A DNA stretch of 42,843 nt from a virus. Both the position numbers and the translations under genes were made by a program. The DNA lies in IMG/VR virus record IMGVR_UViG_3300027852_000017, positions 1-42,843 of that record. The stretch is one strand, 5' to 3'. The notes under the pieces were generated by a model. That model saw only the letters and a list, made by a program, of their open reading frames with translations, had not been told where the DNA came from and made no database searches. Positions 14,233-40,286 of the stretch are shown in pieces (position 1 is the stretch's first letter; each line of letters begins with the position of its first letter).

Positions 14233-14261
14233 ATCATAGCATAAATAAAGCAAAATGTCAA
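14233..14261 (-). promoter_or_regulatory. Sigma70-type promoter for the insert behind the capsid gene
   Basis: Minus strand -35 TTGACA (14261-14256), 17-bp spacer, -10 TATGAT (14238-14233). It is preceded by the partial conserved block AAACCC. It lies between the capsid terminator and the small basic gene, so the insert can be transcribed apart from the late operon. Confidence 0.72.
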
Positions 14262-14275
14262 GGGTTTAAGTAATT

Positions 14276-14349
14276 TATCAAAAAAAAAGCAAGCCATAAT
14301 AAGATAGCAAAGTGGAGGAGAGGTCACTTTGAATTAAAATGGCTTGCTC
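14276..14349 (-). terminator. Bipartite hairpin terminator after the major capsid gene
   Basis: On the minus strand AGCAAGCCAT pairs with ATGGCTTGCT, and inside it CAAAGTG pairs with CACTTTG around a pyrimidine-rich loop. Eight to nine T residues follow. The long two-level stem right after the capsid stop codon fits a rho-independent terminator or an mRNA 3'-end stabiliser for this high-level gene. Confidence 0.78.
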
Positions 14350-14364
14350 ATGAAACATACATAT

Positions 14365-15330
14365 TTAAACTGAGGTTACATGTGTAAGCAAAAACCCCAA
14401 ATTAGCACTGGTTATTTTCTCGTCCTGATAATATCCGAGCTCTATCTCTTCGGCCTTTGTTTTTTGGTCAAAAGGATGTATTTCTGCTTGCATATTAGGT
14501 AAACCACCAGCCGCCCATCTGAAAGAATACATAAAGCTTGGCTCTTCAATAGAAGGTGTAAGCGGCGCAAAATAAACAAGGACATAATCAGACCACAGCC
14601 TTGACAGAGAGGCATCAAGACCCTCCTGAGCTGTGTTCCTCCACGCTTTACCAACAACAAACCTATCAAGATCAAAGATTGTTTTCATATTATCATGAGA
14701 GGCGTATCTTGTTTTTGGTGCGTTTCCTGAACTTCCATGGATAACTTCCATAACGTCCTCGTGTTGTCTAAAGTTTGTCCAAGCAAGATCACTCATAAGG
14801 ATGCTATTAGGTTTATACCCTGTAAGACCTTCTACATTGTCAATTGCAGTCCATATGTCACTAATAGGTGCTGAATAACCGTTCCTATGTTCTATCCAAT
14901 CTGAATCTATTGTAGAATAACTCCCAATATTACTACCTGACGTGCATTTGTCAGCAAGCCTTTTTTCCCACCCCAACATGAGTTTTGATTTAAGGTATTT
15001 AGCTCGCCCACCTCTAAGTTCAGTAGCATACGCTGCATCCATATTTACTCTATCTTCGAGTGTAAGAGGCGTTTTCAAGGCATAATTTTGTGCAAAATAA
15101 GTTTCAGACGAAACATTTCTTGTTATAACGTTGGCCTCTGTTGCAGGCGACCTTTTATCGTCCTCTACTCTGAATGCATCCGCCTGTGACCAAACAAGAT
15201 AACTATCAGCCTGTTTTTGTACTGGAACGACTGGCGCTATTTGATCCGCAATCATCCCGTTTGGTCGATACTGCATTGCTATCCTCGAAAGAGGTATATT
15301 AACGTGCAAACCTTTTCCTAAAGTTGTCAT
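14365..15330 (-). CDS. Major capsid protein
   Basis: 321 aa, start at 15330 behind AAAGGAG. It is full-length with no signal peptide and reads like an HK97-fold capsid protein of Mu-like/encapsulated type. It has an N-arm (residues 1-60), then SETYFAQNYALKTPLTLEDRV at about 91-111 leading to a long helix with ELRGGRAKYLKSKLMLGWEK (about 121-140). A TGYKPNSILMSDLAWTNFRQ segment (about 172-191) follows, and then a strand-rich C-terminus. Order protease, decoration, capsid and the strong terminator right after the stop codon fit the most highly expressed virion gene. Residue ranges are approximate. Confidence 0.8.
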   Translation of the reverse strand: MTTLGKGLHVNIPLSRIAMQYRPNGMIADQIAPVVPVQKQADSYLVWSQADAFRVEDDKRSPATEANVITRNVSSETYFAQNYALKTPLTLEDRVNMDAAYATELRGGRAKYLKSKLMLGWEKRLADKCTSGSNIGSYSTIDSDWIEHRNGYSAPISDIWTAIDNVEGLTGYKPNSILMSDLAWTNFRQHEDVMEVIHGSSGNAPKTRYASHDNMKTIFDLDRFVVGKAWRNTAQEGLDASLSRLWSDYVLVYFAPLTPSIEEPSFMYSFRWAAGGLPNMQAEIHPFDQKTKAEEIELGYYQDEKITSANLGFLLTHVTSV

Positions 15331-15360
15331 TATTTACTCCTTTTTTTATGTTATTTTTTT

Positions 15361-16359
15361 TTAATTTTTTAATTTAGTTCTACCTAAAAGAACATGCTTT
15401 GGCCTTGGAATAACAGCTTTTATAGGCTTTGCTACACCATAAGACCAATCTAAATTATTTTCAAGACCTACTGTTATACATTTTTCCGGCCAAATTGTTT
15501 CCTTTAAGCTTGATGTCGTGTATCTCATTTCTTTGTTGAACACTTCTGTGAAATTTTGGTCGACTTGCATAGGATCACTTGACGGCATTTTGTCATAGCA
15601 ATATTCAATAATTTCTCTCTCTGGGTTTAAAACAATGATTTCAACAGCTCTTTTTTTCCCACTTTCAAGAAGGTAAAAACCATCATTATCAGAAAGAACA
15701 TTGCCAAAAGGATGTTGGACTAAAAGAGGTTTCCCTCCGTTACCAAAACAAACATGGTCTGGAGCGCAACTTTTAGCTATCTCTTCCCTTGTAGCTTTAT
15801 CCCTTAGTATAAAAATCCAGTAAATTTCGCCTGATGATGTATGATAAGTAGAGTTTACGTATGCGTATATTGCACCGATAGTATTTTTCATCCATAATCT
15901 TGTGACATAAACAGCCCCCGTAGCAACGCTTGGATTTATATACACCTCAAAAGGTTGTGCGCATTTAATGGATGGGTAATGAGAAAATGTTCCTCCTGGG
16001 AGCGTAAATGATACACCTGTCAACCCTATGACAGATTGCTCAGTAGTGCTTGTGCCTAATTGTGCTTGCTTTACGTCACCATCCTTTATTTTGGCTGAAG
16101 TTACAGCATCGTCTGCTATTTTAGTCTCTGTCACCGCACTTGTACCTATCTTAGCAGCCGTGACTGCACCCGTCCCTATTTTGTCGGCCGTGACTGCACC
16201 CGTTGCAAACATTGCCTCAGCAATATAACCATTTGCAAGCACTGGAGCGCCGGAATCTTTAGCGAAAGCAGCCGCAATATTATCTCTCAGGTTTTGCATC
16301 TGGGTTGAGGTTAATTTCGTACCATACCCAAAAGCCGCGTTTAAGTTTACCCATGCCAT
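15361..16359 (-). CDS. Fibre-like protein inside the capsid locus
   Basis: 332 aa, start at 16359. Its first 45 residues (MAWVNLNAAFGYGTKLTSTQ and the LRDNIAAAFAKDSGAP segment) closely match the tail-locus fibre at 1226-2389. A short array of ten-residue units (TGAVTADKIG type) follows at about 45-95. The C-terminal domain shares APDHVCFGNGGKP, VQHPF and an end in TKLKN with the paralogue. It lies between decoration proteins and the capsid protein, not in the tail cluster, so it may be a head fibre or capsid-surface appendage. Alternatively it could be a duplicated tail fibre that moved. Confidence 0.68.
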   Translation of the reverse strand: MAWVNLNAAFGYGTKLTSTQMQNLRDNIAAAFAKDSGAPVLANGYIAEAMFATGAVTADKIGTGAVTAAKIGTSAVTETKIADDAVTSAKIKDGDVKQAQLGTSTTEQSVIGLTGVSFTLPGGTFSHYPSIKCAQPFEVYINPSVATGAVYVTRLWMKNTIGAIYAYVNSTYHTSSGEIYWIFILRDKATREEIAKSCAPDHVCFGNGGKPLLVQHPFGNVLSDNDGFYLLESGKKRAVEIIVLNPEREIIEYCYDKMPSSDPMQVDQNFTEVFNKEMRYTTSSLKETIWPEKCITVGLENNLDWSYGVAKPIKAVIPRPKHVLLGRTKLKN

Positions 16360-16384
16360 ATTTTATACCTCTTTGTATTTTTTT

Positions 16385-16741
16385 TTACATTGAAGTAGTG
16401 ACGGAAAAATTAAAAAGCCCTACACCTGTCCCGCCAGAAGACACATCGGCCTTTGCTTTCCCTACGAGCCCTGTGCCGGCCGTAGCTGTAATAAGCCATC
16501 CTGATGTAGTAACTGTCAAAGGATCACCGGCCGATACAGCATCACCGGCTGAAAAGCTTAATTCTCCGACAACTCCAATAACGGCTGTACCTGAGGTTGT
16601 TACAGAGTTATATAAAATGCCGCTTGCTTCAATTCCATCGTTAGCTAATTTACTATCAACGAAGGCGAAAGCTTTGTAAAGAGTTGTTGCAGCGCTTAGG
16701 TCTTCGGCTGTAGCCTGTGTCGTTTTAATAGGCCTTCCCAT
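16385..16741 (-). CDS. Capsid decoration protein, second copy (DUF2190-like)
   Basis: 118 aa, start at 16741 with AGGAGG upstream. It is rich in Gly, Thr, Ala and Val, all-beta, with the segments SAGDAVSAGDPLTVTTSGW and a GTGVGLFNF end typical of DUF2190 capsid decoration proteins. It shares its layout with the upstream gene: TTQATAEDLSA versus TTIAAGEDLSA, an ILYN segment, then TTSGWL. Such trimers sit on the capsid surface and stabilise it. Confidence 0.68.
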   Translation of the reverse strand: MGRPIKTTQATAEDLSAATTLYKAFAFVDSKLANDGIEASGILYNSVTTSGTAVIGVVGELSFSAGDAVSAGDPLTVTTSGWLITATAGTGLVGKAKADVSSGGTGVGLFNFSVTTSM

Positions 16742-16786
16742 TTAAAAAACCTCCTATAACTGATTTAATCTGTTGTTAATTTATTT

Positions 16787-17155: not shown

Positions 17156-17216
17156 ATCTTTCACTCCCTTTTATATTGAAAATTTATTGTTAATTTATTT
17201 TTTTTTATTAAAAATA

Positions 17217-18266: not shown

Positions 18267-18274
18267 ATTGTCTC

Positions 18275-20524: not shown

Positions 20525-20532
20525 ATTTTCCT

Positions 20533-20985: not shown

Positions 20986-20996
20986 AGCTCCCCTTA

Positions 20997-22610: not shown

Positions 22611-22658
22611 GAGACTTACGGCATTTTATTGCATCTATTAGTTTTAACTATATTGCCT

Positions 22659-22687
22659 ACTATAACACATTTTTATCTATTTGTCAA
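22659..22687 (-). promoter_or_regulatory. Late operon promoter
   Basis: Minus strand -35 TTGACA (22687-22682), 17-bp spacer, -10 TATAGT (22664-22659), preceded by AAAAAACCC. It lies just after the early terminator and before the TerS candidate. No convincing inverted repeat overlaps it, unlike several early promoters. Confidence 0.8.
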
Positions 22688-22708
22688 GGGTTTTTTGAAA
22701 AAAAAGAC

Positions 22709-22745
22709 AAAAAAAATACCCCCTATCAAAAAAAAAGATAGGGGG
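22709..22745 (-). terminator. Strong rho-independent terminator of the early region
   Basis: On the minus strand CCCCCTATC, an A/T loop of nine, then GATAGGGGG form a perfect nine-pair stem followed by TA and eight T residues. It lies after the thymidylate synthase-like gene and separates early from late transcription. Confidence 0.92.
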
Positions 22746-22777
22746 CACTGTTAAAATATAATTGTTTTGGCTACTGC

Positions 22778-23473: not shown

Positions 23474-23746
23474 TTATAAGCTTAAAGCAAAAATGCATAA
23501 CCAATCATATTTGAAACAATTATGACCGACAATTTTTTCTTTTGTTAATCTTACCAACGTAATCCTTGCACAATTGGTTATCACCCATAACTCCTCAGTA
23601 TAATTCGGAGCGCATAGAGTTCTTATTTTGATAGGCTCTATGTCGGATGCAAGATGCATGTAATAACGATAGTCAATTTTTTCGTCAACACCGAAGACAC
23701 GGTCTAAAACAGTTAAATATCCTTTTTCATCTTGTGGGTTTATCAT
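23474..23746 (-). CDS. Small paralogous early protein, copy 2
   Basis: 90 aa. Its ATG overlaps the stop of the upstream copy (ATGA). It begins MINPQDEKGYLTVLDRVFGV and shares LTVLDRVFGV, PIKIRTLCAPNY, EELWVI and YKYDW with copy 1. No enzyme motif or membrane segment is seen. The family is not recognised. It lies in a small block between a nuclease gene and the thymidylate synthase-like gene. Confidence 0.6.
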   Translation of the reverse strand: MINPQDEKGYLTVLDRVFGVDEKIDYRYYMHLASDIEPIKIRTLCAPNYTEELWVITNCARITLVRLTKEKIVGHNCFKYDWLCIFALSL

Positions 23747-24027
23747 TCTTTACCTCCGGCCTCTGAAATAAAATTACACGTCCAATCGTATTTATAACAA
23801 TTATAACCGATTACTCTTTCTTTCATTATTCTTATCAAAAGAATTTTACCTCGTTGTTCTATTACCCATAGTTCCTCAAGATAATTCGGAGCGCATAGAG
23901 TTCTTATTTTGATAGGTTTTCTATCAGAATAAAGGATTTCATAATAAAGCGCATCAATTTTTTCGCCAACACCAAAAACACGGTCTAAAACAGTTAGGTG
24001 GTTTTTCCCTTCCTGTGGATTTATCAT
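23743..24027 (-). CDS. Small paralogous early protein, copy 1
   Basis: 94 aa, start at 24027 behind GAGGAGG. About half of the residues are the same as in copy 2, with the strongest match at LTVLDRVFGV and PIKIRTLCAPNY, and a shared conserved Cys in each. The two genes are a tandem duplication with overlapping ends. Function unknown. Confidence 0.6.
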   Translation of the reverse strand: MINPQEGKNHLTVLDRVFGVGEKIDALYYEILYSDRKPIKIRTLCAPNYLEELWVIEQRGKILLIRIMKERVIGYNCYKYDWTCNFISEAGGKE

Positions 24028-26552: not shown

Positions 26553-26594
26553 TGATCTTGAATGCAGTATATAATATCCAAGATCAAATGTCAA
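26553..26594 (-). promoter_or_regulatory. Early promoter with inverted repeat (ERF unit)
   Basis: Minus -35 TTGACA (26594-26589), 17-bp spacer, -10 TATACT (26571-26566), with AAAAACCC upstream. A 12-10-12 inverted repeat runs over 26553-26586: TGATCTTGAATG and TATCCAAGATCA, ten of twelve pairs matching. It covers the -10 and the likely start point, so it may be an operator. Confidence 0.85.
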
Positions 26595-26603
26595 GGGTTT
26601 TTG

Positions 26604-28540: not shown

Positions 28541-28583
28541 TGATCTTGAATACAGTCTATCATATTCAAGATCATGTTGTCAA
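28541..28583 (-). promoter_or_regulatory. Early promoter with perfect inverted repeat (nuclease unit)
   Basis: Minus -35 TTGACA (28583-28578), 18-bp spacer, -10 TAGACT (28559-28554), with AAAAACCC upstream. A perfect 12-10-12 inverted repeat (28541-28552 TGATCTTGAATA, 28563-28574 its complement) brackets the -10 and the start site. This is the clearest operator in the window. Confidence 0.9.
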
Positions 28584-28592
28584 GGGTTTTTA

Positions 28593-28769
28593 TTAAGCAG
28601 TTCTCATTTTTTTGAAGTTATTATAAGCACCTTTTCTGCCATCTATTTTCCTTGAGATGACGTTTCTTAAGCAAACAATAAAACCAGCCCATGATCCTTT
28701 ATAATCAGCGCTGTTGAAATGTTTTTCCATTGGAATATCTTTTTGTTTGTTTATCAAATCTAAATACAT
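28593..28769 (-). CDS. Small early protein, unknown
   Basis: 58 aa, start at 28769 behind GAGGAG. It begins MYLDLINKQKDIPMEKHFNS and is basic (ISRKIDGRKG, NNFKKMRTA). Its own promoter lies just upstream (28823-28851) and the next promoter overlaps its end, so it is a one-gene unit. No family recognised. Confidence 0.58.
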   Translation of the reverse strand: MYLDLINKQKDIPMEKHFNSADYKGSWAGFIVCLRNVISRKIDGRKGAYNNFKKMRTA

Positions 28770-28822: not shown

Positions 28823-28851
28823 AGTCTATCATGTTGCAAACCGTTTGTCAA
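28823..28851 (-). promoter_or_regulatory. Early promoter
   Basis: Minus -35 TTGACA (28851-28846), 17-bp spacer, -10 TAGACT (28828-28823), preceded by AAAAACCC. The flanks at the place where other copies have an inverted repeat match in only about five of twelve positions, so any operator is degenerate here. Confidence 0.82.
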
Positions 28852-28905
28852 GGGTTTTTATTTTGTTTTATCAAGAAAAAAAGTTTCCTCGTTAAATTAA
28901 TCATT

Positions 28906-29378: not shown

Positions 29379-29422
29379 CCTAACTTCAAATATAGTCTAT
29401 CATATTCAAAGTTAGGTGTCAA
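29379..29422 (-). promoter_or_regulatory. Early promoter with a distinct inverted repeat
   Basis: Minus -35 TTGACA (29422-29417), 17-bp spacer, -10 TAGACT (29399-29394), with AAAAACCC upstream. A 14-10-14 inverted repeat runs over 29379-29416 (CCTAACTTCAAATA and TATTCAAAGTTAGG, twelve of fourteen pairs). It has the same geometry as the TGATCTTGA operators but a different outer half-site. Confidence 0.86.
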
Positions 29423-29428
29423 GGGTTT

Positions 29429-31204
29429 TTATTTAATCTTGTAGTTCTTTCTATCTTTATATTCAATTTTTTTGCCAACATTCCAAGAACTTATAGGTCT
29501 AATGTAGCCTGTAACTCGACTGTATGTTTCTGCTTTGCCGCCGCATTTTTCGCAAATTTCAACATGTCCTGGAATATACCCACATTTCTCGCAAATCGAG
29601 AACGTGGGCGTTATCGAAATATAAGGCAAAGAACTCTCCATTATTATAGTTTTTACAAGAGCTTTTGTACCTTCGACTCCAATGCTTTCTCCAAGCATAG
29701 TATGGAAGACAGCTCCCCCTGTGTATTCTCTCTGTATAGTTTCTTGATGCCTCATGGCAAAACCAATATCATCGGTAAATTCGACCGGTAAATTAGTCGA
29801 ATTAGTATAATAATCTTTATCTGAAATATCTTTTTGAGCTAATCTGTAAGCAGTACTCTCGGCTGGAGTAGCTTCCAAATTAAAAAGATCACCATATCTC
29901 ATTTGGGCTATGAGTAACTCTTTTTTTATATTTTTCATGGTCTCAATTGTAATTGTTTGGCCTAATTTTGAGTCAATACCTTCGCCTAAAAGAGTTTCAC
30001 AGGCTTCATGCATGCCTACGATACCTACAGTAGAGAAATGATTGTACCAATATTTATCAAATCTTTTCTTGATATCTCCAAGGTAATATTTTAAATAAGG
30101 GTATAAACCCTTTTCTGTAAAATCTTCAACCATTTTTCTTTTGATATTAAGTGAATAACAAGCAAGGTCTGTATACTCAGATAAAAGCCTTTTGAAAACC
30201 TTAACCCTCTCTGATATATGTTCGCCGCCTACACAGCGTGCAATGCTCGCATAACGTGGCAGGTTGAGGGTTACGACCCCAACACTCCCTGTAAGACCTA
30301 TTGACGAAAATAGGCCGCCTGAGCGTTTTTGGAGCTGCTTGCGATCAATACGCAAACGGCAACACATTGACGTGATCTGGTTTTCATCCATGCCGCTGCC
30401 CACATAGTTCCCAAAATAAGGCACACCAAATTTATCTGTCAACTTCCATAAAGGATTATATTTCTGACTTTCCCATAAAAACTCTTTTGTAATATTATAA
30501 GTTGGTATCGGGAACGGGAACATATTACCGTTAGCGTCCCCCTCAGTCATTATCTCCCAAAAAGCTTTATTAATCATGTCCATTTGTGGCTGAAAGTCGC
30601 CATAGCTCTTTTCAAAGCCTTCCAGCGGAGACACAACCACTTGTGTCCTCATATGGTCTGGGCATATAAGATCAAATGTAAGATTTGAAAAAGGTTGTTG
30701 AAAGCTAACTCTCGTTGGAACATTCATATTAAAGACAAAGCTCCTCAGTTCTTTTTTTACAGTTTTAAAGTCTTTAATATTATCAGCGAAAATAAATGGA
30801 GCAAGCAAAGTGTCAAAGTTAGAGAAAGCTACAGCACCGGCTACTTCACCTTGCACGGAAAACAAAAAGTTAACTATCTGCCCTAAGGCAGACCTGAAAT
30901 GCTTAGGCGGAGCGCACGCAATTTTGCCTTGTACACCACGAAAACCCTTCAATAAAAAATCTTTCAAATCAAACCCACAACAATAGGCCGAAACACTATT
31001 CAAATCGTGAATATGAAGCAATCCAGCACTATGTGCGTCTTTAATCTTTTTGGTGTAGATATTATCTTTCCAAAAACCTTTTGACACCATTTTTGATATC
31101 ATCCCATTTAACCCTTGTAAAGAATAACCCATGTTTGAGTTTTCCTCTATCTCCCACGTATTTTTCTCAAGATATTCACCGACTTCTTTGAGATAATCTG
31201 CCAT
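29429..31204 (-). CDS. nrdD: Anaerobic (class III) ribonucleoside-triphosphate reductase
   Basis: 591 aa, without an N-terminal ATP-cone domain. The core shows MCCRLRIDRKQL, GSVGVVTLNLPRYAS with the usual class III strand, and GIVGMHEACETLLGEG. At the C-terminus a zinc site is formed by C538, C541, C551 and C554, and the glycyl radical site is at G566 (YSRVTGYIRPI, then a WNVGKK segment). The enzyme makes dNTPs from NTPs, needs a radical SAM activase, and is destroyed by oxygen. I see no NrdG in the phage, so the host must supply it. It is followed by early genes and lies in the unit driven from 31660-31688. Confidence 0.92.
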   Translation of the reverse strand: MADYLKEVGEYLEKNTWEIEENSNMGYSLQGLNGMISKMVSKGFWKDNIYTKKIKDAHSAGLLHIHDLNSVSAYCCGFDLKDFLLKGFRGVQGKIACAPPKHFRSALGQIVNFLFSVQGEVAGAVAFSNFDTLLAPFIFADNIKDFKTVKKELRSFVFNMNVPTRVSFQQPFSNLTFDLICPDHMRTQVVVSPLEGFEKSYGDFQPQMDMINKAFWEIMTEGDANGNMFPFPIPTYNITKEFLWESQKYNPLWKLTDKFGVPYFGNYVGSGMDENQITSMCCRLRIDRKQLQKRSGGLFSSIGLTGSVGVVTLNLPRYASIARCVGGEHISERVKVFKRLLSEYTDLACYSLNIKRKMVEDFTEKGLYPYLKYYLGDIKKRFDKYWYNHFSTVGIVGMHEACETLLGEGIDSKLGQTITIETMKNIKKELLIAQMRYGDLFNLEATPAESTAYRLAQKDISDKDYYTNSTNLPVEFTDDIGFAMRHQETIQREYTGGAVFHTMLGESIGVEGTKALVKTIIMESSLPYISITPTFSICEKCGYIPGHVEICEKCGGKAETYSRVTGYIRPISSWNVGKKIEYKDRKNYKIK

Positions 31205-31646: not shown

Positions 31647-31688
31647 TATCATTAAATACAATATAATATATTCAATTACAGTTGTCAA
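31647..31688 (-). promoter_or_regulatory. Early promoter for the nrdD unit
   Basis: Minus -35 TTGACA (31688-31683), 17-bp spacer, -10 TATATT (31665-31660), with AAAAAGC upstream instead of AAAAACCC. An imperfect 12-10-12 inverted repeat (nine of twelve, 31647-31680) covers it. Same geometry as the stronger operators. Confidence 0.78.
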
Positions 31689-31693
31689 GCTTT

Positions 31694-31888
31694 TTATTTA
31701 TCCTCTAACCAAATAAAGGCAAAGTTATCAGCCATTATAGCGACAGGCATATTGTCGCCAACAGCCTTGATTTCTGGTTTTATTTCTGTCCATATCTCTT
31801 TTAAACTTTCTTTTCCTGCTAACCAACTTTCTGTTATCATCATGTCATATTGATATACTTTGTTTTGGTAATCGGTTGAAACGCTCAT
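31694..31888 (-). CDS. Small early protein, unknown
   Basis: 64 aa, start at 31888 behind AAAAGGGGAG. It begins MSVSTDYQNKVYQYDMMITE and has hydrophobic and aromatic patches (ADNFAFIWLEDK). It lies alone between two promoters. No family recognised. Confidence 0.55.
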   Translation of the reverse strand: MSVSTDYQNKVYQYDMMITESWLAGKESLKEIWTEIKPEIKAVGDNMPVAIMADNFAFIWLEDK

Positions 31889-31931: not shown

Positions 31932-31973
31932 TGATCTTGAATGCAGTGTATAACACTCAAGATCATCTGTCAA
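31932..31973 (-). promoter_or_regulatory. Early promoter with inverted repeat
   Basis: Minus -35 TTGACA (31973-31968), 17-bp spacer, -10 TACACT (31950-31945), with AAAAACCC upstream. The inverted repeat over 31932-31965 has half-sites TGATCTTGAATG and CACTCAAGATCA (eleven of twelve). It shares a 20-base block with the promoter at 26.6 kb. Confidence 0.84.
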
Positions 31974-31979
31974 GGGTTT

Positions 31980-32498
31980 TTATTTAAAAAGTTTATTAAA
32001 AAAATGTTTCTGTAGTACATAATCGTTCATAGACATCCTGTACACTGTTAGATATAATTTATAATGTTTTTTAGCCATAGATTTCATATACCCAAAAGCT
32101 TCGCTCTGTTCGTCAAAAACTCGTTTCTGCATTATATAATCATGCTGATACCTTGTGACTGCCATTTTTTTAATTTGCCCATCGGCTTTATTTTCCATAT
32201 ATTTCAAAGCTTCAATTTGCTGATTAAAAACATATTTTTGCAATTCATAGTTACCTGGGTGTCTTTTCCCGACAAGCTTCCTAAGAGTTCTGTTTTTGAC
32301 AGTTGATATATAAACGTATGCAGCCATTTGCCGATTGTATGTATATAACTGCATTCTTTTGTTATCAGGATAAGCTTTCTCAGCATACCTGTCAATTGTT
32401 TCCTCCGCTAACGGAGAGAGAGTAGTATTCGCGAAACTAAGATTAGTTAATAAAACGACCATTGCTGCTAAAGTTAATGTTAATAATTTTTTAAACAT
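31980..32498 (-). CDS. Exported repeat protein, unknown
   Basis: 172 aa, start at 32498 behind AAGGAGAT. Residues 1-24 are a signal peptide: MFKKLL, a hydrophobic core, then LSFAN with probable cleavage after Ala23. The mature part has three full and one short unit of about 39 residues, each centred on N-x-x-LQKYVFNQQ-x-EAL-x-YM-like segments with conserved Gln, Tyr/Phe and Met. The protein is likely periplasmic or on the host surface. It has its own promoter and no structural neighbour, so a host-altering role such as exclusion is conceivable; nothing proves it. Confidence 0.7.
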   Translation of the reverse strand: MFKKLLTLTLAAMVVLLTNLSFANTTLSPLAEETIDRYAEKAYPDNKRMQLYTYNRQMAAYVYISTVKNRTLRKLVGKRHPGNYELQKYVFNQQIEALKYMENKADGQIKKMAVTRYQHDYIMQKRVFDEQSEAFGYMKSMAKKHYKLYLTVYRMSMNDYVLQKHFFNKLFK

Positions 32499-32831: not shown

Positions 32832-33302
32832 TTAGCTTTTTTCGGATTGTCTCCACTTAACACCTGTTCTGACCTGTACAAGGCTTGTATCTTCTGCCAG
32901 TATTTGCTTTTTAGAACAGATATTATTTCTTATCATTTTGCCTATTATATTCAAAAAGCTCAACCGACCTTTTGGTCTTTCAAAGTTAAGGTCTTGATGC
33001 TCCCCACAAAAAGTTATAAAATTGTTGTATAGATCTATTGATGTGATATAATCATCAACATCCCCTGTAAATTCAAGAGTATTATCAATAAATAATTGCA
33101 GGGCATTTTTAGTTGATATTTTTATACCAGAGCAATCAACCCCAGCCTTAATATTTTTTTTAATAAGAGCGACATTCTCACGGTTTGTTAATTTTTCTTT
33201 CATAACCCTGATTTTCTTTAATTTTCTTTCTGCATTTATAACTTCTTGTATAGCAGTTACTTCTCTTTCTATCATCATGCACATTTCTCTGGATGCTTTC
33301 AT
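32832..33302 (-). CDS. Stand-alone primase C-terminal-domain paralogue
   Basis: 156 aa, start at 33302 behind GAGGAG. The N-terminal 50 residues are a charged helix (MCMMIEREVTAIQEVINAER). The C-terminal part has ALQLFIDNTLEFTGDVDDYI, a LYNNFITFCGE segment, RLSFLNIIGKMI and VQVRTGVKW. It lines up with the last 95 residues of the primase-helicase at 36083-38335 (SLNTFIDEKIDITGCDEDYL, KLSFSKRIAKLL, MRVRTGLTW). It has no helicase or primase motif. It may bind DNA, compete with, or load the full primase. Confidence 0.7.
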   Translation of the reverse strand: MKASREMCMMIEREVTAIQEVINAERKLKKIRVMKEKLTNRENVALIKKNIKAGVDCSGIKISTKNALQLFIDNTLEFTGDVDDYITSIDLYNNFITFCGEHQDLNFERPKGRLSFLNIIGKMIRNNICSKKQILAEDTSLVQVRTGVKWRQSEKS

Positions 33303-33337
33303 ATTGTCTCCTCGTTATTTAAGTTATTGATTGAATT

Positions 33338-33371
33338 ACTGGATCATACCACAATAATATGATCCAGTCAA
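33338..33371 (-). promoter_or_regulatory. Promoter overlaid by a perfect palindrome
   Basis: Minus -35 TTGACT (33371-33366), 17-bp spacer, -10 TATGAT (33348-33343). ACTGGATCATA and TATGATCCAGT (11-9-11) form a perfect inverted repeat over 33338-33368, whose arms fall on both hexamers. A repressor bound here would block RNA polymerase. Confidence 0.85.
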
Positions 33372-33375
33372 GCTT

Positions 33376-34071
33376 TTAAACAGTTAATTGCAAATTGATA
33401 TTAACATTTTTTTCTTTTTTATCAAAATACAAATTAAAAACCTCATCAAGAATAGCTTCGTGATAAACATTGACATGTCCATATCTTGTGTCTTTTGTTT
33501 TTCCTATCTCTATACCTCTGTCCCTGCACATTGCGGAGGCTATCCTACCCAATCTGTTTGCCGTCTTGACGTCAATATTAAGGCTTTTCATGGATGCATA
33601 CCCTTTAATAGAATACTCATCCACTTCAGATGTGATCTGCTTGCACTCGACTTTGTGAAGGCGTTCTTCTAATTCGGCCTGCTTCTTATTCGTGTCATTA
33701 AGTTTTTGTGCTACACTTATTAAGATTTCTAACTCATTCATGGGTTTAGCTTGTTGCTGATCTTTAATGTGCTGCTCCATGCGGTTGAACTCTGCAATAT
33801 ACACTTCTTTGAACTTTGCCGCTTTTTTGCCTGTGTAGCCCATACATAAAAAAGTTAGTCCGTCACGGGTAAGTTCATACATCGGTTGAGCTTTATTTTG
33901 TTTGTTGATATAAGAGGACGCCGCAAAATTGCCGAGTCTAAATTTATCAGAACATTCGATCTTTTTAATTGATTTTAATACATCATCATGTTGCTTCCCG
34001 AATACCTCTGCTACCTTCCTGGATGTTGTTGTCAGTTGATTATCTTTATTAATTACCACTAAGTCTTTCAT
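33376..34071 (-). CDS. Rha family regulatory protein, full-length
   Basis: 231 aa, start at 34071 behind AGGAGAG. Rha domain at 1-105: RKVAEVFGKQHDDVLKSIKK, QPMYELTRDGLTFLCMGYTG and a FNRMEQ helix. A linker with Gln/Lys-rich helix follows (about 106-150), and a C-terminal domain with IKGYASMKSLNIDVKTANRL and EIGKTKDTRYGHVNVYHEAI. It is the only intact copy in a group of three, the other two being a short N-domain and a broken gene upstream. Probably controls the phage switch. Confidence 0.85.
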   Translation of the reverse strand: MKDLVVINKDNQLTTTSRKVAEVFGKQHDDVLKSIKKIECSDKFRLGNFAASSYINKQNKAQPMYELTRDGLTFLCMGYTGKKAAKFKEVYIAEFNRMEQHIKDQQQAKPMNELEILISVAQKLNDTNKKQAELEERLHKVECKQITSEVDEYSIKGYASMKSLNIDVKTANRLGRIASAMCRDRGIEIGKTKDTRYGHVNVYHEAILDEVFNLYFDKKEKNVNINLQLTV

Positions 34072-34109
34072 AATTGTTCTCTCCTCGTTTAATTTATTGT
34101 TATTATTGA

Positions 34110-34415
34110 TTAATTTTTATCCATCTTGTTAAACATTTCAAGTATTTCTATTTTCTTTTTTGCCGCCTTTTTCCCTGTATAACCCATAGTTAAAAAAGTA
34201 AAGCCGTCACGAGTTATATTATACATTTTATTTTTCTTGCCAGACTTATCAGCATAATATCGCTCCTGAAAATTCAGGGCATAGAATTTATTAGAACATT
34301 CAAGATTTCTAATCGATCTTATTACAGCATTGTGCCTTTTCTCGAAAACTTCAGCCACTTTTCTTGATGTTGTTATTAATTCGTTGTCTTCGTTGATAAT
34401 CACTAAATCATTCAT
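34110..34415 (-). CDS. Rha N-domain-only protein
   Basis: 101 aa. The ATG at 34415 follows GAGGAG by six bases; the longer frame upstream belongs to the broken Rha copy. It has RKVAEVFEKRHNAVIRSIRN, KMYNITRDGFTFLTMGYTG and KKIEILEMFNKMD, but stops there, so the C-terminal domain is missing. It might act as a dominant-negative or accessory Rha. Confidence 0.72.
   Translation of the reverse strand: MNDLVIINEDNELITTSRKVAEVFEKRHNAVIRSIRNLECSNKFYALNFQERYYADKSGKKNKMYNITRDGFTFLTMGYTGKKAAKKKIEILEMFNKMDKN
34119..34153. repeat. 35-bp direct repeat, copy 1
   Basis: Identical to 34461-34495, offset by 342 bp. It encodes the end of the Rha N-domain (EILEMFNKMD) in both copies. A footprint of recombination between Rha genes. 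Confidence 0.9.
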
Positions 34416-34939
34416 ATTGTTCTCCTCTTTTAAATTATTGTTATTGTTGGCCAACTCTCTATCCATCTTGTTAAACATTTCAAGTATTTCTATTTCTTTC
34501 CAGTCGAATCAATATATTCACTGTCCCGAAAGTTCGGGTGAGTAAAATCCTCTGGAAGTTCAAGCTTTTCGATAGCTTTTAACACATTGCTAAAAAAGTA
34601 AATCCGTCTCTGGTCATTTCAATCATAGGTTGAGGTTTACCTTGTTTATTCAGGTAGTTAGACTCCCGAAAATTCGGGAGTGAAAACTCTTTTGTTAATT
34701 CATACATCGGCCTTTTTTGATTTTGTTTATCAAAATAAGACCCCAATCCAAAATTGAGCGCGGCGAAATCAGCATAATCACTCAGCCCAAATATGGGTTT
34801 AGTGCTAAACACTTCTGGAATATCAATTTTTTCGATATCCCTCAACACATGCTTATGATCTTTGCCAAAAACCTCTGCTACCTGTAAGCTCATTGCTGTG
34901 ATCTTAAACGCCTTTGCCGATCACTACTAAATTATTCAT
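34416..34939 (-). pseudogene. Broken, mosaic Rha gene
   Basis: A ribosome binding site (GAGGAGG) and ATG at 34939 open MNNLVVIGKGV, then a stop. One extra T in the run at 34906-34908 shifts the frame; the next frame restarts at 34893 with MSLQVAEVFGKDHKHVLRDI. That frame holds two partly repeated Rha middle segments (RPMYELTK and then QPMIEMTRDGFTFLAM) and ends at 34579. A third Rha piece (KAIEKLELPEDFTHPNFRDS) follows out of frame near 34500-34585. A fourth piece encoding EIEILEMFNKMDRE reaches about 34416. Several pieces of Rha genes have been joined by recombination. Confidence 0.8.
34461..34495. repeat. 35-bp direct repeat, copy 2
   Basis: Identical to 34119-34153. It lies in the broken Rha gene and encodes the same helix as the downstream copy. 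Confidence 0.9.
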
Positions 34940-35007
34940 ATTGCCTCCTCATTGTTTAAGTTATTGATATTATTGTTATTGCCTGTAAAATCACCATCAT
35001 TAAAAAC

Positions 35008-35036
35008 ATAATAACATATTGTTATTAGCTTGTCAA
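35008..35036 (-). promoter_or_regulatory. Early promoter for the Rha cluster
   Basis: Minus -35 TTGACA (35036-35031), 17-bp spacer, -10 TATTAT (35013-35008), AAAAACCC upstream. A perfect 7-5-7 inverted repeat TAATAAC/GTTATTA (35009-35027) overlaps the -10 and spacer, so this promoter has its own operator type. Confidence 0.85.
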
Positions 35037-35605
35037 GGGTTTTTGCTTAAAAAAAACAGGATCATCAAAAAAAAAGGTCTCCTGGAATTTGGTAGAAAAA
35101 GTCGTAACAGTTTGGGTGTTTTTCACGAGAGACTACCCCTATGTCTAAAATACAGTACAGTTTCTTTTTGAAAGCATAATATAATATGAAAATCCTTATG
35201 AAAGAATATAGTATATAACGGTTACTGGTTACAAAAGCTTCAAGAGTGTACTATAGGTAGTGATTTGAACAGTAGCCGTTTTGTAGCTGATGCAACCGAT
35301 AGGCGATATGTAATTTTCAAGTATCTGTTTTTATTACATATGTTATTTTTAAAACAATCGGACATTTTGGCCGATATACCACTTTTTACCCTATCTGCTA
35401 CAGTGATTATGTAAACTTTTACAGTTTTTTTTGCTCTTTTTTAGAAAGTGTAATATAGACAAAACCAAAAAAGCAGACCAAAAAGCTCCAAAATAACATC
35501 TTTTTGGCTATCTGTAACAGAACGAAAAAGAAAAAGACCAGAGGATTTCTCCCCCAGCCTTTTTTTTGATAAATGTCTTTTATGCTGTTTAATATTTTCT
35601 TATTT
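35037..35605. other. 569-bp gene-free region
   Basis: I find no convincing gene. Frames are short and interrupted, and there is no good start site. A segment near 35320-35425 shares CAGATACTTG and TGTAAAAGTTTACA (a perfect 6-2-6 inverted repeat) with the region downstream of the other primase-like gene. It could hold a regulatory RNA, an origin, or decayed DNA; the sequence does not decide. Confidence 0.55.
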
Positions 35606-36055
35606 CTATTCTTTCCACATTATACCGGTGCGTATATGTATTAATTTGCGGTCATATTTGCCCATCCTTATAAGTGTTTTATTTGACCCTGGAAGTAGTA
35701 TTGTAATCATCTTTGAAAAACTTAGCCTGTTTTTTATTCTTGCTGACATGCCAGACTTGTCACAAAACTCTTTATACCCGTCCCATAGCTCACAGAATGG
35801 AATGCAGTCATCATTGCATCCAGTTATATCTATTGTTGTGTTAAAGAACATATTGAAGGACTCCGCTACAGTCAATGGCCTTTTTTTTGATAAGCTATAT
35901 TTATCATTTGTTCCTGGATAATCTTTCTCGAAGCTATCAGACAAAAATGATAATTCTGTTTTAACCTCAACGAGCATTTGATTGATTCTTTTCTCTTCTG
36001 CAATTAACTCGACAATACGAATTGCTGCTTGCTGAATACTTTTTGTTTCTTTCAT
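35606..36055 (-). CDS. Stand-alone primase C-terminal-domain paralogue
   Basis: 149 aa, start at 36055 behind GAGGAG. The N-terminal helix (MKETKSIQQAAIRIVELIAE) is followed by a domain that matches the end of the adjacent primase closely: LSKKRPLTVAESFNMFF, TIDITGCNDDCIPF, RLSFSKMITILLPGSNKTLI and IHIRTGIMW. It lies directly after the primase gene (28 bp), so duplication of the primase 3' end is the simplest origin. Function unknown; may bind the same DNA or partner as the primase. Confidence 0.75.
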   Translation of the reverse strand: MKETKSIQQAAIRIVELIAEEKRINQMLVEVKTELSFLSDSFEKDYPGTNDKYSLSKKRPLTVAESFNMFFNTTIDITGCNDDCIPFCELWDGYKEFCDKSGMSARIKNRLSFSKMITILLPGSNKTLIRMGKYDRKLIHIRTGIMWKE

Positions 36056-36082
36056 ACCTTTACTCTCCTCGCTTATTAATGG

Positions 36083-38335
36083 TTAAATTTCTTTGTTTCT
36101 TACCGGATCATCCTTCCATGTTAAACCAGTACGTACTCGCATTGGTTTGCGGTTATATTTGTCCATCCTCACAAGAGTCCTATCTGTCTCTGGTAATAGT
36201 TTTGCAATCCTTTTTGAAAAGCTTAATTTGCTTTTTATCCTTGTTCCTTCCAATATCTTGTTATCATCACAAAAGGCTATGTACTTGTCGTAGACTTCAC
36301 AGGATGGTAGATAATCCTCATCGCACCCAGTTATATCAATTTTTTCGTCAATGAACGTGTTGAGTGATTCAGACAGTGTTATGAACCTTTTCTTTGATAG
36401 TCTTTTTTCCTCGTCACCTTCGCAACAAAACTTCCAGTTCTTTTCCCACATTTTTTTCTGGTTGATTGTCAAGACTGCTTTTAATATGGCGGCCTCATAA
36501 TCTTCATTCTTTAACTTATAAATTAAATTCTGGTCGCCTGGTAAATCAAGCATATTTTTATTAAATTCAATAAGAATAAGCCTTCTAAAAAAACCCTCAG
36601 TTTTATCAGAGCTTTGAGGTATCTCGTTCATGGAAAAGAAAAGCTTTGCATAGTTATCAAAAGTAAGGTCTGGAAGATACTTTCTTGCGCATGTTATCCT
36701 GTCACCTCCGGTTAATTTCTTTATAATGCCCATCTCCATCATTTTCAAATAAGGTATCTCGGCTGCAAAATTAGCGAATGATCCGAACAATGCCTCTCTG
36801 CCAAAAGCATCCTCCTTAATAAGTTGATTCAATCCAAGATGTGATATCCTACCCATACAGTCCTGAAGTATCCTTGTGTATGCAGATTTGCCAGTGCCGC
36901 CATCACCATGGAGATAAAACATCTTAGTCCTTTTTGCCTCTTCTTTCATAAGACAATACCCAAGTAGTTCAAAGAAAAGACTTTTATATTTTTCTCCAAG
37001 GATTTGCCCCGATATGGTTTCAATCATTATCTCATCGTTATTAATAGGGTTTTTCTTTTTTGATAATTCCGTTGCTTTTTCGTTGTATGCAAATGGAATT
37101 CTGTGCAAAAGATAATTTTCTTTTCTTGCATTTGTTATAGCGCCAGTTTTATAATTGATGTCACAATCTAACAAATTAATACAGCTTTTAAGCTTTTCTT
37201 TTTCCAAATTAATAGTAGCCGTTTCGCCAAGCTCTCTCTTGGCACGCTTAAGAACGATAATAGCATTTTTAGGGTATGCTATTGCCGGCGGTAAATGCTC
37301 GCATAGAATTTCGCCTTCGGCTATCTCATCTGTAAGTTCCATCCAAGTTTCTGTTTTTTTATTGTAGAATAGATAGTCCCCATTATCTGTTTTTATCCAG
37401 TCTTCTTTTTTCAAAGTTTCAAAAGTAACATTTTTAAGCCTTATTGCTAACGGTACTTTTTTGGGTTTGAGGTTTGCTCCAGTAGCATTTTCTATTTTCT
37501 TAATCCTTGCCTTTTTGTGATCTGCATAGTGCGCTGAAATATTTGAGCGCAAAGCGGTCTCAACTTCTGAATATGGAAAACCATTTTGCATCTCAGGATT
37601 TAGTTGGTCATACCATGATCTTGCGAACAGTTTAATATTCTTTTCAGAGTAGCCGTTTTTCATCCATGCTCCAACATTAGTGCATATTGCGTTGTTTCTT
37701 TCACCTTTACATGGCTGCATTATTAACGTTTTTATTTGGAATTGCTTGCCATCGCAAATATCTATACCTTTAATTTCTACATCATTATCTGGTTCTATTT
37801 TAGTTACTTGCTCTTCTTGTTCACCACCTTTGATGTTAAAACCTGCCTTTTCAAGAACAGGTCTAATATCCATTGCCCATGACACAGCCTTTATTGGTAA
37901 ATCCCTTACGGTCGTGTACTGACCTCCATCGGGGTGTGTTGACCCCGCGCCTACTACAGCATTTTTGTTTGTAAGCACATCGGCGTGCTTATCTCCATTT
38001 TTAAAAATAGCAGCTCTTTTCGTTAAAGAGCTTTGATCATTATTATAAAAATAATAATGAAATCCTTTTTTTGTTTTGGTTGTATGCGTATGTGGCAAAC
38101 CATCCATCAACCTTGCTATCTCGTGATTTGGATGATCATCGTCGACCACAAATAGTTTCTCCGCCTCCTCCCCGCACACGATAGCAATATTGCTCCCGCT
38201 ATTTAATATTTTTTCTGCATCTTCTCTACCAACTACTGCCTTAATCCAATCTGTACCTTTAACTTTTCTCGCCTTTGATTTCGGGTAAACAGCTAAAAAC
38301 TTACACGTTTGCAGATGTTTAGAAATTTTTGCCAT
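36083..38335 (-). CDS. Prim-Pol / SF3 helicase replication protein
   Basis: 750 aa, start at 38335 behind AAGGAG. Residues 1-180 are a primase-polymerase domain: VVDDDHPN at 63-70 with the metal-binding acidic pair, and GFHYYF at 91-96. A D5-type N-terminal region follows (about 310-460). The SF3 helicase has Walker A GDGGTGKS at 477-484, NFAAEIPYL at 522-530 and a SMNEIP sensor at 568-573. Residues 648-740 are a separate C-terminal domain that occurs twice more as single genes. It primes and unwinds DNA at the phage origin. Confidence 0.9.
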   Translation of the reverse strand: MAKISKHLQTCKFLAVYPKSKARKVKGTDWIKAVVGREDAEKILNSGSNIAIVCGEEAEKLFVVDDDHPNHEIARLMDGLPHTHTTKTKKGFHYYFYNNDQSSLTKRAAIFKNGDKHADVLTNKNAVVGAGSTHPDGGQYTTVRDLPIKAVSWAMDIRPVLEKAGFNIKGGEQEEQVTKIEPDNDVEIKGIDICDGKQFQIKTLIMQPCKGERNNAICTNVGAWMKNGYSEKNIKLFARSWYDQLNPEMQNGFPYSEVETALRSNISAHYADHKKARIKKIENATGANLKPKKVPLAIRLKNVTFETLKKEDWIKTDNGDYLFYNKKTETWMELTDEIAEGEILCEHLPPAIAYPKNAIIVLKRAKRELGETATINLEKEKLKSCINLLDCDINYKTGAITNARKENYLLHRIPFAYNEKATELSKKKNPINNDEIMIETISGQILGEKYKSLFFELLGYCLMKEEAKRTKMFYLHGDGGTGKSAYTRILQDCMGRISHLGLNQLIKEDAFGREALFGSFANFAAEIPYLKMMEMGIIKKLTGGDRITCARKYLPDLTFDNYAKLFFSMNEIPQSSDKTEGFFRRLILIEFNKNMLDLPGDQNLIYKLKNEDYEAAILKAVLTINQKKMWEKNWKFCCEGDEEKRLSKKRFITLSESLNTFIDEKIDITGCDEDYLPSCEVYDKYIAFCDDNKILEGTRIKSKLSFSKRIAKLLPETDRTLVRMDKYNRKPMRVRTGLTWKDDPVRNKEI

Positions 38336-38368
38336 ATTACAATCTCCTTATACTTTGTAGTTTCTCTT

Positions 38369-38398
38369 AATATAGCAGATTTACAGTGGGTATGTCAA
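38369..38398 (-). promoter_or_regulatory. Early promoter for the primase gene
   Basis: Minus -35 TTGACA (38398-38393), 18-bp spacer, -10 TATATT (38374-38369), AAAAACCC upstream. No clear inverted repeat is seen here. Confidence 0.82.
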
Positions 38399-38412
38399 GG
38401 GTTTTTATTGTG

Positions 38413-38874
38413 TTATTTTTTTAAATAATGATAAAATCTTTCATTCCAGCAAGCATCCGACAGTGCGTTATGTCCGTTTACAGGGCTTTTAAACATTGGT
38501 TTTTTAACAGTGTTGGCGAGTTGTTTCAAGTCATTACAATACATCGGCCATTCTTTTGGAAGGTTTATCATTGCGCCAAATAGCCAACAAAAATTAATCC
38601 AATCATAAGAAGAGTAATAGCCCCAAAATTCAGGAACATCCTCACCTATAAAACATAAAATACTATCCTTGATTTTTGCCTTTGGCATCCACAATTTATG
38701 ATCCTCAGATAATGACTTTATTACATGATCTTTGACCCAGTCAGACGCCTTTGTGGAGTCAAATTCATTATTGATAGCATAAAACGTTCGCTCATCTTCA
38801 CATTTTATGCCGATTGATATTAATTCAATCGAGCATGGATATTCGATAAATTCTGTATCAATAAAATACCTCAT
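38413..38874 (-). CDS. DEDDh 3'-5' exonuclease (Rv2179c-like)
   Basis: 153 aa. It follows the Rv2179c-like exonuclease pattern: FIDTEFIEYP with D6 and E8, IELISIGIK, FYAINNEFD, and in the C-terminal half YYSSYDW with D91 and NGHNALSDA with H135 and D140. These four residues would hold two metal ions. Family members digest RNA or DNA from 3' ends. The start is weak (AAGGATAAAAA); the gene lies after a terminator and before the primase promoter. Confidence 0.8.
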   Translation of the reverse strand: MRYFIDTEFIEYPCSIELISIGIKCEDERTFYAINNEFDSTKASDWVKDHVIKSLSEDHKLWMPKAKIKDSILCFIGEDVPEFWGYYSSYDWINFCWLFGAMINLPKEWPMYCNDLKQLANTVKKPMFKSPVNGHNALSDACWNERFYHYLKK

Positions 38875-38908
38875 TTTTTATCCTTTATATTTTTTTATAT
38901 TGTTTAAC

Positions 38909-38942
38909 AAAAAAAAGACGAGAGCAAATAAATGCTCCCGCC
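38909..38942 (-). terminator. Rho-independent terminator
   Basis: On the minus strand GGCGGGAGCA and TGCTCTCGTC form a ten-pair stem with two G-T pairs and a six-base loop, followed by eight T residues. It closes the SSB unit. Confidence 0.85.
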
Positions 38943-38968
38943 TTATTATTTTACTTAACGGTTAATTA

Positions 38969-39214
38969 TTAGGAAAAGAAAGCTAATAATTTACGGGCAA
39001 ACACATGGTAGCTATTATCAAGATTTGTGTCTAACAAAAGAAGTAGACCTGTTCTTGTCATAGCCACATCACCTCTTTTAATTTTAAAATTTTTATAACG
39101 AAAAGATTTTGTGCAGGGAAGTCCCCCTATTTTGTGGACAATATCAATCCCGCTCAGCTCTTTTTTGCCAGTTATTTCAAGAATATCACGAATTGTAATA
39201 TATTTTTGTTCCAT
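38969..39214 (-). CDS. Small early protein, unknown
   Basis: 81 aa, start at 39214. It begins MEQKYITIRDILEITGKKEL and has a basic centre (KSFRYKNFKIKRGDVAMTRT) followed by a hydrophobic helix. It could be a small DNA-binding regulator, but no helix-turn-helix is certain. It follows the Rha-GIY-YIG gene and is ended by a terminator. Confidence 0.5.
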   Translation of the reverse strand: MEQKYITIRDILEITGKKELSGIDIVHKIGGLPCTKSFRYKNFKIKRGDVAMTRTGLLLLLDTNLDNSYHVFARKLLAFFS

Positions 39215-39240
39215 CCTTATATTCTCCTGGGGTATAGGAA

Positions 39241-39753
39241 TTATGTTAAAGTGTTTAAATAATCAACGGCCTCTTTAAAATCAATATCAAACCACAATCC
39301 TATTACTCTGTGTGGCTCAAATTTTTTATGCATTTTGGTTTTAAGGTAGGACGTTTCTGCATTTTTAACATAATATTTCTTTATTATGAAAAAGCCTCCT
39401 ATTTTTTCTGTAATTTTAACACGTTTATCAATAGATGAGGTTATACCAATTTTAACGCGGCTAAATTCATTCTCTATTAAATATAATACTTTATCAACCT
39501 TCTCTTCTTTGTCTTTTTTTCCACCTTCAGGTTGATGATTACCATCATTTGTTAACATGCGCACACCATCCTCAGATATGCCATACAATGGAAACTCGTT
39601 GTTCTCAGCGTCAATATAGTCTCTATTTTCAAAATTTAAGGTCATAAATTCTTTAGAACAATCAAGTTTTTTGATCCGGTCTATTATGCTCAAATGATCT
39701 TCATTTATTTTCTTTGCAAGATCTCTTGATGATATTACCATTTTATTTTTCAT
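39241..39753 (-). CDS. Rha N-domain fused to GIY-YIG-like domain
   Basis: 170 aa from the ATG at 39753, which lies five bases after GAGGAG; a GTG two codons earlier overlaps that site. Residues 1-75 look like a Rha domain (RDLAKKINEDHLSIIDRIKK, EFPLYGISEDGVRML). Residues 92-165 resemble a T5orf172-type GIY-YIG nuclease: VLYLIENEF, VKIGITSSIDKRV, and TKMHKKF, then GLWFDI. The glutamate usual before the H-x-x-F segment seems replaced by Lys, so catalysis is doubtful. It may be a DNA-binding regulator with a nuclease-derived domain. Confidence 0.72.
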   Translation of the reverse strand: MKNKMVISSRDLAKKINEDHLSIIDRIKKLDCSKEFMTLNFENRDYIDAENNEFPLYGISEDGVRMLTNDGNHQPEGGKKDKEEKVDKVLYLIENEFSRVKIGITSSIDKRVKITEKIGGFFIIKKYYVKNAETSYLKTKMHKKFEPHRVIGLWFDIDFKEAVDYLNTLT

Positions 39754-39813
39754 ATTCACTCCTCGTTTTTACTGCATCATAAACATAACGGTATTATACA
39801 TTATTTAAGCTAT

Positions 39814-40200
39814 CTAAAATGGGATATCGTCTGATTGCGGATCATATCCGTGACTACCTCCATTATTCCGTTGACGGTCTTCATTATTTTTTGGCGTCAA
39901 AAAATCAATTTGATTAATTTTTGTTGATGTGAAATATTTCATAACTCCATCCTTTTCGTATTTTTTCGTTTCGGGAACGCCTTCAAAATAAAGTTTGTCA
40001 CCTTTTGCTAAATAATTCCCAACAGCTTCAGCAAGTTTCCCAAAAGCGACTCCATTTACCCACTCAGTTCCTTTTTTATTAGCAGCATTAGAATCATATA
40101 CTGAACATCCTATCGAAAATTTTGCGATAGCCATGCCTGAAGCTGTATAAGTGATTTCAGGTGTACGACCTACATTACCGATACCGGCTTGTTTTAACAT
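39814..40200 (-). CDS. ssb: Single-stranded DNA-binding protein
   Basis: 128 aa, start at 40200 behind GAGGAGAAAAATT. It is a typical OB-fold SSB: GNVGRTPEITYTASGMAIAK, NGVAFGKLAEAVGNYLAKGD and a LYFEGVPETKKYEKDG strand. The acidic tail ends in DDIPF, the C-terminal peptide that binds partner proteins. It leads the early region behind the promoter at 40258-40286. Confidence 0.92.
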   Translation of the reverse strand: MLKQAGIGNVGRTPEITYTASGMAIAKFSIGCSVYDSNAANKKGTEWVNGVAFGKLAEAVGNYLAKGDKLYFEGVPETKKYEKDGVMKYFTSTKINQIDFLTPKNNEDRQRNNGGSHGYDPQSDDIPF

Positions 40201-40257
40201 AATTTTTCTCCTCTGTTAGTTATTAATATTAATTAATTATTTAGTTATCTGAAAAGA

Positions 40258-40286
40258 GTTATACCATATAAAAAAACACCTGTCAA
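40258..40286 (-). promoter_or_regulatory. Early promoter for ssb
   Basis: Minus -35 TTGACA (40286-40281), 17-bp spacer, -10 TATAAC (40263-40258), preceded by AAAAACCC. It is the first promoter after the late terminator. No clear operator was found. Confidence 0.85.

Follow-up and report, generated by a model that had tools for sequence, protein, structure and literature searches.

Does a promoter that has been copied many times within one phage genome remain under a single regulator, or do its copies come to answer to different ones? This question is raised by the virus record IMGVR_UViG_3300027852_000017, the whole of which (42,843 bp) forms the window analyzed here. A family of twelve sigma70-type promoters is dispersed along its minus strand, and at six of the twelve a palindrome of one of four sequence classes (A-D) lies over the promoter core (Table 1). 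We consider it probable that these are promoter cassettes used by the host sigma70 polymerase, copied together with a leader and ribosome-binding site and repressed by dimeric proteins, and that their operators have diverged between copies.

The 14-mer AAAAACCCTTGACA is present in nine exact copies, all on the minus strand; the other strand has none, nor does a reversed control. When up to three mismatches are allowed, 22 matches are found versus 8.0 expected, a number reached in 0 of 100 shuffles. Every exact copy lies just upstream of an open reading frame (ORF) start and is followed by a -10 box at 17 bp, or at 18 bp in the case of 28591 and 38406. All nine of the minus-strand sites that a first-pass annotation had reported, with -10 boxes at 17-18 bp, are thus present. 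The three near variants it had listed at 14.2, 31.7 and 33.3 kb were also found, at 14.27 kb (14269, two mismatches), 31.70 kb (31696, three mismatches) and 33.37 kb (33371), the last having TTGACT and only loose similarity in its upstream part. A terminator-like hairpin lies just upstream of three of the twelve promoters (22695, 40294 and, weakly, 35044).

More than the promoter itself was copied, and the unit is better called a cassette, because paralogous units align over ~45-107 bp at 74-89% identity and the longest alignments reach through the leader to the ribosome-binding site. The same units emerge from a repeat finder as families of 9, 4 and 3 copies (repeat families D1-D4), and the units are direct repeats in a single orientation. 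The leader element CAATAACTTAAA recurs, with at most two mismatches, at 34440, 34099, 33329, 31918, 28796 and 26539, for seven starts in total, among them those of two Rha-family genes lacking their own promoter.

Class A operators, of the form TGATCTTGA-N16-TCAAGATCA, are found at 26.6, 28.6 and 32.0 kb, three operators with TGATCTTGA half-sites having been described, and the one operator described with CCTAACTT half-sites is seen at 29.4 kb, where it forms class B. In tests of 300 shuffles per site, with 60 nt scanned, the palindromes at 26602, 28591, 29430 and 31981 were matched in only 0-1 shuffles. The class C palindrome at 33.3 kb, which was scored without shuffling, scores 11; no comparison promoter (0/47) passes a cut-off of 9. 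The comparison set, selected by terminase similarity, comprises 80 contigs (754 kb, 47 promoter-like sites). An inverted-repeat score of at least 9 is reached by none of these 47 sites and, in the window, by 5 of the 17 promoter-like sites. The remaining palindromes of the first-pass annotation fared unevenly. The 11-9-11 repeat at 33.3 kb is there as described, and the 7-5-7 repeat at 35.0 kb is present but was rescored as 8-3-8. A weaker repeat of ATTRAATA type at 31.7 kb survives as a weak ATTGAATA/TATTTAAT dyad that is not significant against 300 shuffles at 31696.

The geometry of the palindromes bears on how they would be read. Measured from the start of the -35, the dyad centre lies at 25-26 nt in classes A and B, on the -10, and at 18.5 nt in classes C and D; the constant 10-bp centres over the -10 that had been claimed are a property of A and B and not of C and D. 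Classes A and B have an inner TTGAATA in common and differ in their outer arms, where left and right change together, as expected for dimer half-sites. Since the palindromes of classes A and B enclose the -10, their left arm is outside the promoter's own transcript, and this position points to recognition as DNA. With its 74-89% identical units, at least four operator classes and a difference between A and B that is symmetrical in both arms, the genome bears out the proposal of a copied promoter with an operator half-site that varies.

Comparison with a relative indicates that the palindromes are maintained. The sole close relative in our IMG/VR scans, IMGVR_UViG_3300002225_000108, is a 13,261-bp fragment that is ~95% identical over 21.8-35.3 kb and retains all six operators. 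Only 1 of 108 bases in the operator arms is substituted, versus ~7 expected from the 6.65% divergence at third codon positions (P 0.005). Operator C has two substitutions, both of them in the loop. Eight promoter regions have 11 changes in 560 bases (P 2e-7 versus third positions, 5e-4 versus the overall rate).

A simpler account is that the promoter alone matters, in which case recent duplicates would be kept alike for strength and the palindromes would be incidental or read by one protein through TTGAATA. The block AAAAACCC ahead of TTGACA had been thought to go beyond what sigma70 needs, and this claim is weakened. We compared it with 123 strong promoters taken from 80 unrelated IMG/VR loci (707 kb in all), a sample that is not random, the loci having been retrieved via the 14-mer and the retrieving sites then removed. 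Before TTGACA, these promoters have 54-67% A at positions -9 to -5 and 56% C at -1, so that the same pattern of A-tract, N3 and C stands ahead of TTGACA in strong promoters of unrelated phages. This is in keeping with an A-tract placed where the proximal UP-element subsite would be. Moreover, the 14-mer plus a -10 is found in at least 120 IMG/VR stretches, mostly in one or two copies per record. Because the A-tract and C recur in unrelated phages and the 14-mer is widespread, the block is best described, on sequence grounds, as a common flavour of strong sigma70-type phage promoter, and for the same reasons we do not favour a special polymerase or sigma factor for AAAAACCCTTGACA. What remains of the claim is that nine identical copies in one 43-kb genome are unusual; these point to copying and selection for strength rather than to a dedicated polymerase. 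A generic, widespread promoter sequence speaks for the simpler account, as do the copies without a significant palindrome and the TTGAATATGATAGACT common to A and B. We nonetheless judge that account unlikely, since four palindromes far exceed shuffles, the operator arms are conserved, the arm changes between A and B are paired, and C and D match A and B in neither sequence nor position.

Several observations weigh against diverged operators read by dimeric repressors. Half of the promoters lack a significant palindrome, none being found in the 60 nt scanned at 14269, 22695, 28859, 38406 and 40294. The class D palindrome at 35044 is weak and was reached in 12 of 300 shuffles. Classes B, C and D are represented by one site each in the window, each with one orthologue, and the collections searched hold just one close relative. 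A single protein could in principle read both A and B through the inner TTGAATA. Finally, no recognised repressor helix-turn-helix family was detected among the proteins scanned.

Our favoured mechanism, repressed and diverging cassettes, would operate as follows. The phage genes, which lie nearly all on one strand, would be transcribed by the host main sigma factor from strong promoters (A-tract, CCC, perfect TTGACA, 17-18 bp spacing and a -10). The cassette, up to ~105 bp long with the A-tract at one end and the ribosome-binding site at the other, would have spread by duplication to the front of individual genes. Six cassettes in the region of replication, recombination, nucleotide-metabolism and Rha genes hold a putative operator covering the spacer and -10, where a dimeric DNA-binding protein would block RNA polymerase and shut the genes off; the late-region, primase and ssb promoters appear to be free of such an operator. 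After duplication, the half-sites would have diverged pairwise, in left and right arm, to give at least four classes, with A at three promoters and B, C and D at one each, and different repressors or repressor variants should then read different units. That different regulators read different units, as had been proposed, is plausible. The fuller proposal, in which paired half-site changes have created at least four specificities, each with its own regulator drawn from the expanded Rha or primase-C-terminal-like families, and hence separately repressible units, is tentative and in our view rather doubtful.

Which proteins might act as repressors? The Rha-family proteins are candidates. The window has seven Rha-domain matches, several of which are fragments; the relative, itself a fragment, has two. 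Intact Rha proteins are encoded at 33376-34071, 34110-34478, 13257-13952 and 39241-39759. A structure model of Rha has a mean predicted local distance difference test score (pLDDT) of 75 and a predicted template modelling score (pTM) of 0.41; it has no match in the PDB at E <= 0.001, and many of its top weak hits are winged-helix regulators. The idea of one Rha per operator has no support, because the relative lacks the intact Rha copy at 34.1 kb yet keeps every operator, and because a class-A-like operator is carried by an unrelated 61-kb phage in which Rha was not detected. Rha proteins remain candidates, but the Rha link is not favoured by what little evidence there is. An 81-aa protein that had also been considered was rejected as a Rha, having only a weak profile match (13% probability). 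One group of Rha genes forms a decaying array (34110-34938, minus strand), in which a first copy, with its ATG at 34938, soon meets an early stop and is followed by a partial-repeat mosaic (34579-34893), a fragment near 34.5 kb and two intact copies; in the relative, a single intact copy stands beside remnants.

Two further candidates (156 and 149 aa) are related to the primase. The primase C-terminal part is present in three copies (32832-33302, 35606-36055 and the 3' part of 36083-38335, minus strand), two of which are free-standing behind a helical N-terminal stretch in the 156- and 149-aa proteins. The structure model of the 156-aa protein has a pLDDT of 65.

One can also envision that the cassettes serve mainly as recombination joints for the ERF annealing protein encoded by this phage, through which genes would be gained, lost and shuffled, with regulation secondary. 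Homology to the relative on the upstream side of the 31981 promoter ends at the promoter itself, the gene next to it having been exchanged. A 38-bp partial duplication forms part of an insertion that the relative carries in the leader following the 22.7-kb promoter (locus L136 ~863-976 versus window 22636-22673). In this one relative, however, the module-exchange breakpoint at 31981 and the leader insertion at 22695 stand apart from the other cassettes, which are colinear. Direct repeats in one orientation suit such joints, but recombination between them would delete essential genes, and both the palindromes and the conservation of their arms would be left unexplained. We regard this reading as quite unlikely.

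The single class-A-like operator of the unrelated 61-kb phage (IMGVR_UViG_3300036944_001020) stands at a promoter in the same register. Patterns for the B core and for C had no match in any further IMG/VR contig. When 84,980 bacterial and archaeal genomes were scanned for the class-A pattern, 18 single matches resulted. Most of these evidently fall within coding sequence, and a promoter-like setting could be recognised for none; matches in other collections were likewise mostly in coding sequence. No comparable promoter family is present in Marinitoga phage MPV1, whose terminase places it among the nearest INPHARED phages. That the palindromes are operators for host regulators, by which the phage would sense the state of its host, would fit the lack of an obvious phage repressor and the single class-A-like site in a phage without detectable Rha, but the bacterial and archaeal genome results weigh against it, and we consider it very unlikely.

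Table 1. Promoters, putative operators and associated features, by position in the window unless a locus is named
Feature	Position	Strand	Remarks
Promoter TTAAACCCTTGACA-17-TATGAT	14233..14269	-	before 74-aa ORF; no significant palindrome
Promoter AAAAACCCTTGACA-17-TATAGT	22659..22695	-	before ORF upstream of terL (late region); no significant palindrome
Promoter AAAAACCCTTGACA-17-TATACT	26566..26602	-	before ERF recombinase gene
Promoter AAAAACCCTTGACA-18-TAGACT	28554..28591	-	before 60-aa ORF and PDDEXK-like nuclease gene
Promoter AAAAACCCTTGACA-17-TAGACT	28823..28859	-	before 58-aa ORF (28593-28769); palindrome lost or never formed
Promoter AAAAACCCTTGACA-17-TAGACT	29394..29430	-	before 63-aa ORF
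Promoter TAAAAAGCTTGACA-17-TATATT	31660..31696	-	before 140-aa ORF and nrdD; weak ATTGAATA/TATTTAAT dyad
Promoter AAAAACCCTTGACA-17-TACACT	31945..31981	-	before 64-aa ORF
Promoter TTGACT-17-TATGAT	33343..33371	-	before 156-aa ORF
Promoter AAAAACCCTTGACA-17-TATTAT	35008..35044	-	before Rha array
Promoter AAAAACCCTTGACA-18-TATATT	38369..38406	-	before primase gene; no palindrome
Promoter AAAAACCCTTGACA-17-TATAAC	40258..40294	-	before ssb; no significant palindrome in stretch scanned
Operator class A, TGATCTTGGATA-N10-CATTCAAGATCA type	26553..26586	-
Operator class A, perfect 12-10-12 TGATCTTGAATA-N10-TATTCAAGATCA	28541..28574	-
Operator class A, TGATCTTGAGTG-N10-CATTCAAGATCA	31932..31965	-
Operator class B, CCTAACTT-N22-AAGTTAGG	29379..29416	-
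Operator class C, ACTGGATCATA-N9-TATGATCCAGT	33338..33368	-
Operator class D, TAATAACA-N3-TGTTATTA	35009..35027	-	statistically weakest class
Class-A-like operator TTGACA-N3-GATCTTG-N18-CAAGATC, -10 at 17 bp	locus L146 ~751-791	-	before 74-aa ORF
Leader element CAATAACTTAAA	34955..34966	-	before GAGGAG and ATG
Terminator-like hairpin (-21.4 kcal/mol) and T-run	22714..22753	-	just upstream of 22.7-kb promoter
Terminator-like hairpin (-12.5 kcal/mol) and T-run	40312..40351	-	upstream of ssb promoter
156-aa protein	32832..33302	-	predicted long N-terminal helix and primase-like C-terminal part; candidate regulator, under operator C
Rha-family protein, 231 aa	33376..34071	-	candidate regulator
Rha-family protein, 122 aa	34110..34478	-	missing from relative
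149-aa paralogue of primase C-terminal part	35606..36055	-	candidate regulator

The two ends of the record share a 127-bp overlap, as would be seen in a complete genome that is circular or terminally redundant. The annotated minus-strand genes run through tail, head, portal and terminase to replication and recombination functions; after the terminase come the ERF annealing protein, a PDDEXK-like nuclease and a class III ribonucleotide reductase (NrdD), and further genes encode a Prim-Pol/DUF5906 primase, SSB and several Rha-family proteins. Neither an integrase nor a CI-type repressor was found among the window proteins scanned, and a search of Rfam for known RNA elements gave no match. The terminase is nearest to those of Marinitoga phages (46%), and NrdD is ~40% identical to an Oceanotoga phage NrdD and 42% identical to that of a human-gut phage. 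The presence of nrdD suggests an anaerobic host.

Three other loci are worth recording. A gene for a small repeat protein with a signal peptide (31980-32498, minus strand) differs from the relative at 41% of aligned bases, versus 1-8% in the genes flanking it, and for this reason was probably exchanged or is fast-evolving. Tandem paralogous ORFs of 90 and 94 aa (23474-24027, minus strand) have no assigned function. In the structural region, a 976-aa ORF (10100-13030, minus strand) looks like fused glycosyltransferase and methyltransferase domains.

Repeated phage promoter-operator cassettes usually have one operator consensus. If our reading is correct, this genome would hold a natural record of repressor specificity diverging after cassette duplication, and it is small enough for each protein to be tested against each site. 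Such a result would also bear on the role of the very common, poorly understood Rha-family proteins.

Dispersed near-identical promoters are common in phages, and several of the loci that we retrieved have such families. The closest described system is the start-associated sequences (SAS) and extended SAS (ESAS) of Cluster K mycobacteriophages, intergenic cassettes that are dispersed over the genome and immediately precede gene starts; Adephagia has seven copies of a 46-47-bp motif, comprising a SigA-like promoter (17-18 bp spacing) and an imperfect 15-17-bp inverted repeat and followed by a start-associated leader element, and the role of SAS/ESAS is reported as unclear (PMC3203893, PMC11373665). 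The window, too, has dispersed sigma70/SigA-type promoters, with a spacing of 17-18 bp and a gene start directly after them. However, the SAS/ESAS inverted repeats have one consensus per genome, whereas the window has at least four half-site classes beside an invariant -35 block, and the SAS consensus GGGATAGGAGCCC before the start codon is replaced by a leader of the form CAATAACTTAAA..GAGGAG. Because its operators lack a single consensus and its leader differs, we consider the window similar in its likely working but not a member.

Other systems share single features with this one. The promoter early stem-loops (PeSLs) of T4-type phages (Arbiol et al. 2010, Genome Biol Evol 2:140) are said to be repeated, dispersed promoter cassettes proposed as module-exchange joints, and reportedly pair an early promoter with an adjacent stem-loop. 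Promoter cassettes are repeated between genes in the window as well, but instead of that pairing we find a hairpin and T-run at three of twelve promoters (one weak) and six operators overlapping promoters. Many dispersed sites of protein-binding type are also found in Cluster O mycobacteriophages, whose 17-bp dyad repeats are mostly away from promoters, and in Cluster A mycobacteriophages, whose stoperators are asymmetric (PMC4351075); each of these sets has one consensus, unlike the window. In the virus IMGVR_UViG_3300032607_000889, TTGACA-N17/18-TATAAT promoters are dispersed at six places and have a palindrome covering the spacer and -10. The pattern is opposite to that of the window: the operator of this virus, GCCAAAATTATA-N3-TATAATTTTGGC, hardly changes between copies, and it is the sequence ahead of the -35 that varies. 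As in repressor-operator systems generally, conserved palindromes overlap the -35/-10 here. Dispersed promoter-operator cassettes in phages were thus already known; what is new is a constant promoter with diverging operators.

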